From contig NZ_BATJ01000007.1 of the NCBI RefSeq assembly GCF_000467125.1, positions 124,001 through 188,000 on the forward strand: a stretch of 64,000 nt of DNA, written 5' to 3'. Made by a program: the position numbers and the translations under genes. This document shows positions 14,264-19,703 of this stretch, piece after piece; the stretch's first letter is position 1, and every line of letters begins with the position of its first letter. The stretch comes from Vibrio proteolyticus NBRC 13287. GTDB lineage: Bacteria; Pseudomonadota; Gammaproteobacteria; Enterobacterales; Vibrionaceae. The notes beneath the pieces are model-generated. The model did not search any database and was not told where the DNA came from. It saw nothing but the letters and a program-made list of their open reading frames with translations.

Positions 14264-14562
14264 ATTCTTTCTCTTTTATTCCATTCCATCCTAGCGCACC
14301 GATCATGACAGAATCGTGACTTTTATGAAACGAGGATGCAAAGAAATTTATTTAAGCAGACGACTGACTGTATAACACCGACGTGCATCACAAGGTTCTG
14401 TGAGCTAAATATCTGCTTATATTGATTTTTTCAATTATGCTTAATAGTAAGCAACTAACTTGCTGTAAATGAACGTTGACATCGAGCGTGCCTTCTTTTT
14501 TTGCATCTCACCCGTCTCAGCGCCTTCGTTCGCAGCTCCCCGGAACAGCAAGGAATGTCAGT

Positions 14563-16194
14563 ATGCAGTTAGATAGAGTAGAAATTTCAGGATTCCGTGG
14601 CATTCGTCGCCTGTCATTGTCGTTTGATGAGTTGACGACATTGATTGGCGAAAACACCTGGGGCAAGTCATCCTTGCTCGACGCCCTGTCCGTCGCACTG
14701 CCAGCGGATGGCGAACTTTATCAATTTGAGATGATGGATTTTCATGTCGATTACTCGATTTCACATCCTCAAACCCAGCATCTGCAAATTGTACTCAGCC
14801 TGATCGCCAGCGACAGGCATGAGTTGAAAGCCGGTCGATATCGAAGAATCAAACCATTGTGGGTCGAAGATCAAGACGGAAATCACCGGATTTACTACCG
14901 GATCAGTGCATCAAGAAACTTGTATGACATTACCACCACCTACGCGTTCCTAGATGCCAAAGGCAATCCCAAATCGTTACACCATGCTGACAAACTGGCA
15001 AAAGAGTTGATGAGCTTACATCCGGTGATTCGCTTGCGCGACTCACGCCGCTTTGATCGCCCAATCAGCTCCACTGACCCGGTTAACGCGCGTGTTGAAA
15101 AACGCATCAATAACACGTGTCGACGACTAATGGCGATTCCCGGACACGTGAACAAAGGCGAAATGAAAAGCAGTCTCGCATCGATGAACTCATTGATTGA
15201 GCACTACTTCTCTTTCAAAAGTCAAAGTCGTAAAAACCCGAGAAAACAACGGGACGGTGTGTTCTTCACTTCTTCGCCCAGCGACAGCAATCTAAGTAAA
15301 ATTGTTGAAGAAACTCGCAACAAGCAGACCCGGCTGCTGTTAATGGGGCTGCTGAATGCTTATCTGCAAGCCAAAGGGCCCAATGATTTGCGTCGCTGCG
15401 CGCGGCCGCTATTGATTATTGAAGACCCAGAAGGCCGGCTTCACCCGACTCACCTGGCACGCGCCTGGAGTTTGCTGCAACTTCTGCCCATGCAAAAAAT
15501 TCTGACCACCAACAGTGCCGATTTACTGCGTCAGTTGCCTTTGAATTCGATCCGGCGCCTGGTTCGTCAGTCAGACAGGACCGTCGCGACTTATTTGCCC
15601 ACTCAACGGTTAGGCAAAGACGAATTGCGCCGCATCGGATTCCACATCCGCTTTCATCGCTCGGGCGCTCTGTTCGCCCGATGCTGGTTACTGGTTGAAG
15701 GTGAAACCGAAGTCTGGCTTTTTAACGAACTGGCGAATCAATGTGGTTACAACCTGGCAGCAGAAGGAGTACAAATCATTGAATTTGCCCAATCCGGGTT
15801 AAAATCTCTAATCAAGGTCGCAAAAGCCTTTGGCATTGACTGGCACGTGGTGACCGACGGTGACCCGGCAGGTAAAAAATACGCGCATACGGTCAGAAAC
15901 ATGCTGGGGCATGATCAGGAACGTCACCGGTTGACTGAGCTGCCGGACAAAGACATCGAACACTATTTATACGCCCACGGATTTGAAAATTTCTTCAAAG
16001 ACATGGTGAAGATCCCGCACGACCATCCGATCCCAGCCAAAAAAGTGGTCACTCGGGTGCTCAAGAAGCACGCCAAACCGGATCTGGCTCTGGCCATCGT
16101 GTCGCATTGTGAAGAACGTGGCATGGAATGCATCCCACTTTTACTGCGCTGGACGCTTAAACGAGTCATTACCATGGCAAACGGCAACACTTAA
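14563..16194 (+). CDS. YbjD-like AAA ATPase with TOPRIM domain (OLD family)
   Basis: 543 residues from the ATG at 14563, which follows AAGGA; a TTG 87 bases upstream is rejected because homologous sequence begins at MQLDRVEISGFRG. The Walker A motif is GENTWGKSS (residues 29-37), followed by a short coiled insertion and a Walker B-like LLIIEDPEGRLHP. The C-terminal TOPRIM domain has WLLVEGETE and DGDPAG. OLD-family proteins are ATP-dependent nucleases. E. coli YbjD is about the same length and is chromosomal and uncharacterised. There is no Gabija-type helicase partner beside it, so a defence role is not supported by context. Confidence 0.85.
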   Translation: MQLDRVEISGFRGIRRLSLSFDELTTLIGENTWGKSSLLDALSVALPADGELYQFEMMDFHVDYSISHPQTQHLQIVLSLIASDRHELKAGRYRRIKPLWVEDQDGNHRIYYRISASRNLYDITTTYAFLDAKGNPKSLHHADKLAKELMSLHPVIRLRDSRRFDRPISSTDPVNARVEKRINNTCRRLMAIPGHVNKGEMKSSLASMNSLIEHYFSFKSQSRKNPRKQRDGVFFTSSPSDSNLSKIVEETRNKQTRLLLMGLLNAYLQAKGPNDLRRCARPLLIIEDPEGRLHPTHLARAWSLLQLLPMQKILTTNSADLLRQLPLNSIRRLVRQSDRTVATYLPTQRLGKDELRRIGFHIRFHRSGALFARCWLLVEGETEVWLFNELANQCGYNLAAEGVQIIEFAQSGLKSLIKVAKAFGIDWHVVTDGDPAGKKYAHTVRNMLGHDQERHRLTELPDKDIEHYLYAHGFENFFKDMVKIPHDHPIPAKKVVTRVLKKHAKPDLALAIVSHCEERGMECIPLLLRWTLKRVITMANGNT

Positions 16195-17063: not shown

Positions 17064-17969
17064 TTACAACACTGTAGGCTGCCCTTTCATCATTCTTAAA
17101 CCTTCCCGTTTGATGCATTCAGCTAACGGGTTTTCAGCCATGTCCGAGCGCCAAATGAACGACAGGGTTCGTTCCATATCCAACTCAGGAACGTTAAGCG
17201 CGACCAGTTGGCCACTGTGAATAAATTTGGCTACATCCAGATAAGGCAAACAGGTCAGATAGGGGCCGTTGGCAACCAGAGAGCGCAGCACCGGTACGTG
17301 CTCGTATTCACGCCAGACATCCAAATCTTCAATCAAATGATGGATTGAGCTGTCAAAGACTTTGCGCGTACCAGAACCATGCTCACGCAACACCCATTTG
17401 GCTTGCTCGAGCTGTGCCAGACTGACCGTTTCTCGTTTGGCAAACGGGTGATGCGCAGATGCGACAACCGTAAGATGGTCGCGACACCACACCATTTGAT
17501 GGAGGCGATTATCATCGCATCGCCCTTCTATCACGCCGAGATCGTATTTGTAGTCCAATACCCCCTGAATCACACCATTGGTGCTTTTCACTCCGAGAGA
17601 AATGCGCATTTCAGGAAAGTCATTATCAATAATACTGATGAGGTCAGGCACCAGATGTTCCGCTGGTGTCTGGCTGGCGCCCAGACGAATTTCACCACTG
17701 AGTAAGTGCTGCTCGTAGAACCCCATTTCGATCTGCTGGGCGTCTTGTAATAATCGTTTAGCTTTAGGTCGTAGCCACATCCCCCAATGCGTCAGCGCCA
17801 TTTGTTTGCCCTGACGTTCGAACAGGGGCCGTCCGAGCATTTTTTCCAGTTGGGCAAGCGACATACTGGTCGCCGATTGTGTCAGTGCAAGCTTGTCTGC
17901 GGCTTGGCTGACGCTGCCTGTATCTGCGACGGCATCAAATACTGCAAGTTGTTTTAATGAGTACCGCAC
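17064..17969 (-). CDS. LysR-family regulator (YeiE-like), divergent from focA-CBS
   Basis: 301 residues. The helix-turn-helix lies at about residues 3-62 (GSVSQAADKLALTQSATSMS), followed by an effector-binding domain. It starts with GTG at 17969 behind AAGGA. The overall pattern resembles YeiE-type LysR proteins. It is divergent from the FocA-CBS gene, and the shared 200-base region contains several palindromes of LysR-site type, so control of the transporter and of itself is the natural inference. The effector is unknown; formate or a related one-carbon signal would fit the neighbour. Confidence 0.83.
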   Translation of the reverse strand: MRYSLKQLAVFDAVADTGSVSQAADKLALTQSATSMSLAQLEKMLGRPLFERQGKQMALTHWGMWLRPKAKRLLQDAQQIEMGFYEQHLLSGEIRLGASQTPAEHLVPDLISIIDNDFPEMRISLGVKSTNGVIQGVLDYKYDLGVIEGRCDDNRLHQMVWCRDHLTVVASAHHPFAKRETVSLAQLEQAKWVLREHGSGTRKVFDSSIHHLIEDLDVWREYEHVPVLRSLVANGPYLTCLPYLDVAKFIHSGQLVALNVPELDMERTLSFIWRSDMAENPLAECIKREGLRMMKGQPTVL

Positions 17970-18004: not shown

Positions 18005-18092
18005 CTCATGCCTGATCATGAGCAAACGGTTTCATTGTAAGGTGAAAATCACCTATATCAATAATTTTGATAAGGTTTTTAAACATTATCAA
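18005..18092. promoter_or_regulatory. Stacked palindromes in the LysR/focA control region
   Basis: Four inverted repeats lie in 88 bases: CTCATG-N6-CATGAG (18005-18022), AGGTGA-AAA-TCACCT (18040-18054), TATCAA-N5-TTGATA (18056-18072) and TTGATAA-N12-TTATCAA (18067-18092). The last two share an arm. They are candidates for sites of the divergent LysR regulator and possibly an oxygen regulator. Function is inferred from position only. Confidence 0.5.
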
Positions 18093-18167
18093 TTTTACCT
18101 CTATCGCTTCCCATCCTAATCTGCTCTGGCAAACGGACATAATGTCTTGTTTGAAAAGGAGGTAATA

Positions 18168-18215
18168 ATGAAAAATAGATTAGGGAGTGCGTATGTCGAC
18201 CACCCAATCCAATAA
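18168..18215 (+). CDS. Possible 15-residue leader peptide overlapping focA
   Basis: The best ribosome site in the region, AAAAGGAGGTAATA, leads not to the transporter but to an ATG at 18168. This opens a 15-codon frame (MKNRLGSAYVDHPIQ) ending in TAA at 18213-18215, 23 bases inside the transporter gene and in another frame. The transporter ATG at 18193 has only GGGAG close by. Translation of the leader could feed ribosomes to the transporter start by coupling. No run of regulatory codons is seen, so classical attenuation is unlikely. Confidence 0.45.
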   Translation: MKNRLGSAYVDHPIQ

Positions 18216-19644
18216 CATCCAGTTGTTTTCTCCATCAGAGATGATGGCTGAAGCAGAAAAATTCGCGATCAGCAAGGCAAAAAAAACCAGCGGTATGACG
18301 CTGAGTTTAGCGGTGATGGCCGGTGCTTTTATCGGCCTGGCATTTCTTTTCTATATCACGGTGACGACAGGCAGTGGGAACGCTGGCTGGGGGCTAACTC
18401 GTCTGGTTGGCGGGCTGGCATTCAGCATGGGCTTGATACTGATTGTCATTTGTGGCGGTGAATTGTTTACCAGTTCCGTCCTCTCCTCGATTTCCTGGGC
18501 CAACAAGCAGATTAGCCTGCGCAAAATGCTGTCTATCTGGGGGAAGGTCTATCTGGGAAATTTCATCGGTGCAATGGCGCTGCTGTTTATCGTCTCAGGT
18601 GCCGGGTTGTATCAGATGGATCATGGTCAATGGGGTCTGAATGCGCTCAATATTGCCCAGCACAAATTGCACCACACCACTCTGGAAGCCTTTTTTCTTG
18701 GCGTCTTATGTAACCTGTTGGTGTGTCTGGCAATATGGCTGACCTTCAGCTCGGCTAACGCAATGACAAAAGCGGCGATGACCATTATGCCAGTGGCAAT
18801 GTTTGTCTCCAGTGGTTTTGAACACTGTGTCGCCAATATGTTCATGATCCCACTTGGCATTACCATTCATGCCTTTGCACCTGAAAGTTTCTGGGCGCAA
18901 CTGGGCCTTGAAGCAATGCAGTTTCAGGATCTAACCGTAGCGAACTTTATTACCGCCAATCTTATCCCGGTGACGTTTGGAAACATCGTAGGGGGCGCGG
19001 TTTTAGTCGGCTTAGCCAACTGGAGTATTTATCGACGACCGCAATTAAAGTCCGCGACCATCACACCTATCAGCACGACCACGACTATCACATCAGAAAA
19101 GGAAACCATTATGAGCTCAGAAGTTTCAGTCCGTGACATCATGAACATCCACCCTATCACGCTGAGCGCAGACATGCCGGTACCAGAAGCGATTGATAGC
19201 CTGCTCGATACGCATTTAACCAGCGCGCCAGTATGTGACGTGCAAGGACGATTAGTCGGCTTCTTTTCAGCACACGATGTCATGGTTGATCTGTGGTGCC
19301 AGGATTACATTCCACAAAAAGACCAGAAAGTTGTCGACCTGATGTCGCGAGATGTGATTGCAGTCAATGCAAATGACCGCCTGGTCGATGTTGTGGAATT
19401 CATGTGCATCGACAAAGAGCAGTTATACCCGACAAGCAGTATGGGCATCGCCACTCGCCTGACATCATTATCGTTGGAAGAGCGAGCTAAAGCGATGAAA
19501 GTCAGTAAACCGCAGTTGCTGCCTGTGCTGGACGATGGTGAGTTTGTTGGCGTGGTAACCCGTGAGCATGTATTGGCCGCACTACGACCCGTTTATGGCG
19601 AACGAGTTCAGCACCAAAGTGAAACCAAACTCGAACTGGCTTAA
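18193..19644 (+). CDS. FocA-like formate/nitrite channel fused to a CBS-domain pair
   Basis: 483 residues from the ATG at 18193 (a GTG two codons earlier is possible). Residues about 30-280 are a six-helix FNT channel; GGELFTSSVL holds the pore Thr and FEHCVANMF the central His of FocA. A Thr/Ser-rich linker (about 285-308) leads to two CBS domains (about 310-365 and 380-475), the second with an insertion of about 30 residues. CBS pairs usually bind adenine nucleotides, so gating by energy state is inferred. An internal ATG at 19111 (Met307) has AAAAGGAAA upstream and could yield a separate CBS protein. Confidence 0.88.
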   Translation: MSTTQSNNIQLFSPSEMMAEAEKFAISKAKKTSGMTLSLAVMAGAFIGLAFLFYITVTTGSGNAGWGLTRLVGGLAFSMGLILIVICGGELFTSSVLSSISWANKQISLRKMLSIWGKVYLGNFIGAMALLFIVSGAGLYQMDHGQWGLNALNIAQHKLHHTTLEAFFLGVLCNLLVCLAIWLTFSSANAMTKAAMTIMPVAMFVSSGFEHCVANMFMIPLGITIHAFAPESFWAQLGLEAMQFQDLTVANFITANLIPVTFGNIVGGAVLVGLANWSIYRRPQLKSATITPISTTTTITSEKETIMSSEVSVRDIMNIHPITLSADMPVPEAIDSLLDTHLTSAPVCDVQGRLVGFFSAHDVMVDLWCQDYIPQKDQKVVDLMSRDVIAVNANDRLVDVVEFMCIDKEQLYPTSSMGIATRLTSLSLEERAKAMKVSKPQLLPVLDDGEFVGVVTREHVLAALRPVYGERVQHQSETKLELA

Positions 19645-19676: not shown

Positions 19677-19703
19677 CAAAAAAGCCCCCGCAATGCGGGG
19701 GCT
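19677..19703 (-). terminator. Terminator of cybB-yceI operon
   Basis: AGCCCCCGC at 19683-19691 pairs with GCGGGGGCT at 19695-19703; on the minus strand a T-run follows. It lies 20 bases after the YceI stop and also separates it from the convergent focA-CBS gene. Confidence 0.88.

Follow-up and report, generated by a model that had tools for sequence, protein, structure and literature searches.

Channels of the FNT family are pentamers, and Bateman modules (CBS pairs) usually dimerise; where transport proteins such as MgtE, OpuCA and CorC/CNNM carry a CBS pair, the transporters act as dimers. The closest described relative of the gene analysed here, which we call focA-CBS, is the formate channel FocA (TIGR04060; PDB 3kcu, 3kly and 9g49), with which it has in common the channel part, the pore residues and a class score above the cut-off. 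According to the available text of PMC5572259, the FocA proteins of E. coli and V. cholerae stop soon after TM6, whereas FocA-CBS continues with a linker and a CBS pair; here the kind of module that MgtE, OpuCA and CorC/CNNM carry as dimers is joined to a channel whose family forms pentamers. Its CBS part resembles the Bateman modules AcuB, CBSX1/CBSX2 and MJ0922 in fold and in the ligand motif of CBS1, but differs from them in a conserved CBS2 insertion of its own (~30 residues) and in being joined to a channel. E. coli FocA is thought to be controlled by PflB from the cytoplasmic face (PMC12559229, in the text available), and a cytoplasmic sensor at that face is therefore reasonable. In a survey of the FNT family (PMC5525234) the longest C-terminal segments belong to FocA and YfdC-alpha, and the term 'CBS' is absent from its main text; because these segments are the longest, the surveyed set may include fused members that passed unremarked. 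We found no paper on FNT–CBS proteins in the literature searched, which was judged by title and was largely without subscription papers.

A second set of precedents concerns translation. Like focA-CBS, the genes for SctQ/YscQ, HrcQ and the CTP1L endolysin have an in-frame internal start; their products, as the available text of the reports describes (PMC4295842, PMC4777826 and PMC8553256), include a short C-terminal form that binds the long one. These proteins are neither channels nor bearers of CBS domains, and the short product of focA-CBS is a predicted one. Internal translation and a CBS domain occurred together in none of the matches listed in our literature search.

The features of the locus are collected in Table 1; the window referred to throughout is the whole 64-kb (64,000-nucleotide) stretch of DNA that was analysed. 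An in-frame GTG (18187) lies ahead of the ATG assigned to focA-CBS.

Table 1. Features of the focA-CBS locus (positions in the window)
Feature	Positions	Strand	Basis or remark
Divergent LysR regulator, YeiE-like	17064..17969	-	far under YeiE cut-off (226.1 vs. 480 bits)
Candidate LysR operator (TATCAA/TTGATA half-sites in repeat, with TATCAATTTTAC at the end)	18056..18098		sequence reading
Strong SD AAAAGGAGG (18154-18162) and 15-codon leader ORF (ATG18168)	18154..18215	+	runs across the channel start, out of frame with it
FocA-CBS fusion gene, 483 aa	18193..19644	+	ATG18193 to TAA19644
FocA-type formate channel part, residues 1-282	18193..19038	+	TIGR04060 score, 9g49 structure match, residue conservation
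Thr/Ser-rich linker, residues ~290-306	19060..19110	+	little mRNA structure predicted
Internal ribosome site: AAGGA 19099-19103, 7-nt spacer, ATG 19111-19113	19099..19113	+	sequence, comparative evidence
Predicted free CBS-pair protein, 177 aa	19111..19644	+	Bateman fold in model; product inferred
CBS1, GxxSxxD ligand motif G356, S359, D362	19129..19284	+	Pfam, residue conservation
CBS2	19327..19596	+	AlphaFold model; missed by Pfam
Conserved CBS2 insertion (DKEQLYPTSSMGIATRLTSLSLEERAKAMKVSK), residues ~407-439	19411..19509	+	residue conservation
Terminator-like hairpin between focA-CBS and yceI	19683..19703	-	hairpin prediction listed on minus strand

Pfam assigned residues 16-277 of the 483-aa protein to FNT and gave a single CBS match at 313-364. 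The protein passed the TIGR04060 cut-off of the FocA class (368.4 vs. 290.1 bits) and did not reach that of the stricter NF008069 (319.9 vs. 440); by sequence, its best solved relatives are the 3kly and 3kcu chains. The full-length model (mean pLDDT 76.4, pTM 0.56) had as its top structure match the cryo-EM structure of full-length E. coli FocA, 9g49 (TM 0.93, by target). We checked 18 E. coli-equivalent channel positions in 76 relatives, including F75, F90 and F202, which we take to be pore-lining; 14 positions never vary, and at 13 of these the residue is that of E. coli; the position of D88 is an invariant Glu and that of S210 is either C or S. T91, H209, K156, N172, N213 and N262 (E. coli numbering; pore-lining assignments from the available text of PMC9380403 and PMC5525234) are identical in 76/76. 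After TM6, where Y-L-R/K would be expected of the FocA class, this protein has Y-R-R (Y in 50/76, R in 49/76 and R/K in 62/76 relatives). Judged from its sequence, the channel part is a FocA-class formate channel with intact pore residues, for which formate passage as a homopentamer is predicted. Two further FNT genes are present in the same genome.

The model of the CBS module (mean pLDDT 78.7, falling below 50 at module residues 104-118, within the insertion) contains two CBS folds when compared with AcuB, CBSX2 and MJ0922, of which Pfam detects one. Its first four structure matches had Z scores of 15.5-16.3 and rmsd values of 1.7-2.4 over 124-127 residues; the fold is close to AcuB with AMP/ADP and to CBSX2 with AMP, and the CBS domains of OpuCA, CorC and MtCorB are also among the matches. 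The module is conserved among relatives, so that the first condition named for refuting the original prediction does not hold. The ligand motif of CBS1 is kept (G356 invariant, S359 in 76/76 and D362 in 75/76), while that of CBS2 has no conserved aspartate (T/S456 in 66/76, D at 459 in just 24/76). W368, D407, P413, R431, P440, P444 and G453 are invariant in the same 76 relatives, and within the CBS2 insertion G418 (75/76) and T421 (71/76) nearly so; since D407, P413 and R431 never vary and G418 and T421 rarely do, we regard the insertion as constrained. In a 274-genome search of the class, the nearest outside relatives of the CBS part were stand-alone CBS pairs lacking this insertion; pairs of this kind (138 and 153 aa) are encoded by the source genome itself and also outside the family, elsewhere in the order. 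The retained CBS1 motif and the AcuB/CBSX2-like fold of the model make nucleotide gating plausible. The architecture that the original prediction had read from this DNA, an FNT channel carrying a CBS pair on a Thr/Ser-rich linker, with an insertion in the second CBS, is confirmed, and it recurs across the family.

Among 150 genomes sampled from the family, 99, counted by hand and including the source genome, carry full-length FocA-CBS (a match in a single open frame that begins close to the start and reaches at least residue 461, at a threshold of 1e-90). It was absent from the 368 other genomes of a class sample (n=369); 18 of these matched the channel part at 1e-20, none of them past query residue 320. 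The titles of the best 80 of 195 loci named Vibrio, Photobacterium (4) and a 'Vibrionales bacterium' (1). From 170 relatives we set aside eight that were too short or broken (L109, L117, L118, L119, L120, L124, L125 and L126) and removed 46 near-duplicates from the remaining 162, leaving 116, of which 76 are in A1 and 75 in A2. At the equivalent locus, flanked by LysR, YceI, cytochrome b561 and the OLD-like gene, L117 and L118 have a FocA without the CBS part, which can therefore be missing there. Relatives in which channel and sensor are separate genes were sought and not found: L117, L118, L217 and L218 have FocA alone, and no CBS part was seen downstream in the available stretch, which is short for L217 and L218, and no separate CBS gene was seen in L119, L120, L219, L220 and L222, which match in at least two frames, or in L109, L125 and L126. 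The last three are shortened by a frame change inside the CBS2 insertion, and two of them are seemingly one contig.

It had further been proposed that the junction carries a start signal followed by ATG 19111. In this DNA, AAAAGGAAA occupies 19097-19105, upstream of that ATG. Codons were aligned for 78 relatives and later for 116; the linker mostly reads K-E/D-x-x-M with Lys encoded by AAG, so that AAGGA, 7 nt and ATG follow one another. A canonical SD core with ATG was present at the joint in 102/116 relatives and failed in 14/116; a looser joint pattern (ATG or TTG) was present in 112/116, the exceptions being L101, L133 and L134, which have almost no anti-SD pairing at the joint, and L112, in which the pairing remains moderate at -4.1, ATA replaces ATG and the canonical core is absent. 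Eight others have weak joint SDs (-2.9 to -3.5 kcal/mol). Codon 303 encodes Lys in 98 relatives, 93 of which use AAG, vs. 721/2244 Lys codons across the alignment, and when only Lys codons before a GAN codon are compared, AAG accounts for 93/94 at the joint, 34/295 elsewhere in the same genes and 13/89 in the ORFs of the window. In 100 rounds of synonymous resampling of the 94 sequences with Met at the joint column, a strong SD (duplex at or below -5) arose on average in 31.5 sequences and never in more than 43, vs. 93 of 94 observed. The other 19 Met columns had no comparable SD excess over synonymous resampling (0.05 at most, vs. 0.65 at the joint), and an in-frame internal Met with an SD core was found in 4 of 357 cases in the ORFs of the window, the joint Met presumably being one of them.

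Because the sequences are related, Fisher values for the AAG contrast overstate their independence, and we regard as more telling the lineages in which the SD is built from other residues: CGGAGG in L129 and L192, TTGGAG in L121-L123 and GAGGA in L183. L182 retains AAGGAGG before a TTG start. In 94 sequences, little mRNA structure is predicted at the joint, with a mean of -1.97 kcal/mol per 45 nt vs. -7.06 in the background; this is partly expected from the composition of the linker and may reflect nothing else. Two other approaches were set aside. A scan for SDs by energy alone was insufficient, as Met79, in a Gly-rich helix, scored a mean of -6.26 vs. -6.46 at the joint, although it had no SD excess over synonymous resampling. 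The turnover of AAA and AAG on the tree was indecisive, since Lys286 and Lys314 were equally slow even though AAA is the usual codon there.

The pattern at the joint could have arisen in two other ways. The K-E-x-x-M residues could be a protein motif, e.g. a protease or partner site, with the nucleotide pattern as its by-product, and K and M are indeed conserved while the rest of the linker varies; yet the extreme part of the signal is a choice among synonymous codons, and the SD persists in several lineages whose residues at the joint differ (S-E-A-T-M, L-E-H-A-M and E-D-I-N-M), which leaves this reading highly improbable. Alternatively, SD and ATG could be the relic of focA and CBS genes that merged, with the full fusion as the sole product now. 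The stand-alone CBS pairs described above are in keeping with such an origin, as is the position of the internal ATG, where a stand-alone CBS protein would start. A relic should decay, whereas the joint SD is kept, with AAG at 93/94 Lys-GAN joints, or rebuilt from other codons, and three of the four start-less relatives (L101, L133 and L134; L112 being the fourth) have hardly any pairing; we therefore consider a mere relic improbable. AAG bias, synonymous resampling and SDs made from other residues together count against both readings. These comparisons indicate that the internal start is under selection and in places rebuilt, rather than a fresh relic, and the original prediction that two genes had merged needs amending to this extent: the fusion stands, and is family-wide, while its start signal is no recent leftover.

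Since joint SD and ATG are under selection, with the SD in places rebuilt from other residues, a free 177-aa CBS protein is likely, and the channel-sensor and the free sensor are probably both made from one message, as had been suggested for this locus; the comparative evidence supports this predicted product. The internal start is kept in the frame-broken L219, L220 and L222 and in the shortened L109, and absent from the frame-broken paralogs L119 and L120; the frame-broken L124 has no start by the joint pattern. In L219, L220 and L222 the broken frame lies in the channel part, the internal SD and ATG precede an open CBS part, and sequencing error is possible.

We think it rather likely that this single gene, with two in-frame starts, encodes a FocA-class channel whose C-terminal Bateman ligand sensor tunes formate flux. 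Translation from the first start would give the membrane-bound channel-sensor, and initiation at the second, where linker and CBS part meet, would give just the sensor module. This module would bind an adenine nucleotide or a related ligand and tune formate flux, and the free form could either partner the tethered module as a subunit or act as a soluble competitor. The presence of the free protein in cells, the ligand of the module and the effect on flux are the parts of this explanation that we infer. With a pentameric channel and a module of a usually dimerising kind, five pairs could be completed by free modules, which would reconcile the five-fold channel with two-fold CBS dimers; that they do so, forming five hetero-dimers under the pentamer, with the ratio of long to short products and the bound nucleotide setting the gate, is a more tentative proposal and on balance somewhat unlikely.

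The CBS module might instead not gate the channel, serving another kind of sensing or a platform for assembly or tethering (e.g. of LysR or an enzyme), with the free form cytosolic. LysR is missing from the available stretch in three of the four start-less relatives vs. 7 of the 112 with a start (counts that ignore relatedness, L112 and L182 having been assigned by hand), and the conserved CBS2 insertion has no known role, both of which would fit such a platform. Direct control is favored by the fusion at the channel's cytoplasmic face and by the intact ligand motif, and other CBS-bearing transporters (MgtE, ClC and OpuA) are under direct CBS control; we hold a non-gating module to be unlikely. 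If a gating sensor is indeed present, it would be the first of nucleotide type built into an FNT channel, as far as the literature searched goes, and focA-CBS would show clearly how a single reading frame can supply a membrane channel together with its soluble partner. It becomes testable how cells match the export of formate to their energy state, and in what way a dimerising sensor serves a pentamer; were the pairing of free and tethered modules true, opening of the formate channel would read the energy state of the cell through internally initiated subunits. Gene models with one protein each may conceal a second protein throughout a bacterial family.

Upstream of focA-CBS, the divergent LysR gene that had been noted at the outset recurs widely, lying upstream and opposite in 122/140 loci and downstream in 5. 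The half-sites between the two genes likely form a LysR operator, and we treat them as a candidate: TATCAATTTTAC lies within 300 nt upstream in 79/116 relatives, and in the window it has one match, at 18087-18098, vs. 0.45 expected at no more than one mismatch, which is not significant. In 64/116 relatives an out-of-frame ATG preceded by an SD lies 23-28 nt before the channel start (at 25 nt in 46) and opens an ORF of 8-16 aa that runs over this start, vs. a mean of 0.32 in base-shuffled upstream regions. Such a leader ORF possibly provides translational coupling, which would place three starts on one message.

YceI follows in 83/140 loci and cytochrome b561 in 81, figures in which loci with short flanks cannot show all neighbors. 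A gene for a DUF2813/OLD-like ATPase with TOPRIM lies near the locus (14476-16194, plus strand), and is upstream on the same strand in 74/140 loci. In other lineages some of the neighbors point to formate metabolism, which fits a formate channel. The neighbor of L182 matches the C-terminal part of a formate dehydrogenase alpha subunit, from profile position 286 on (439.7 bits vs. a cut-off of 666.25), and those of the broken copy L119 match SelD (545.1 vs. 299), HydN (123.5 vs. 260) and hydrogenase-4 subunit B (630.5 vs. 667), SelD alone exceeding its cut-off. The stretch 669-5697 of L119 thus resembles a formate-hydrogenlyase locus: the frame-broken FocA-CBS paralog, which has no internal start, is flanked by selD and by genes resembling those for HydN and hydrogenase-4. 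Formate genes are not invariably adjacent to focA-CBS, since the neighbors of L104 look flagellar by eye.
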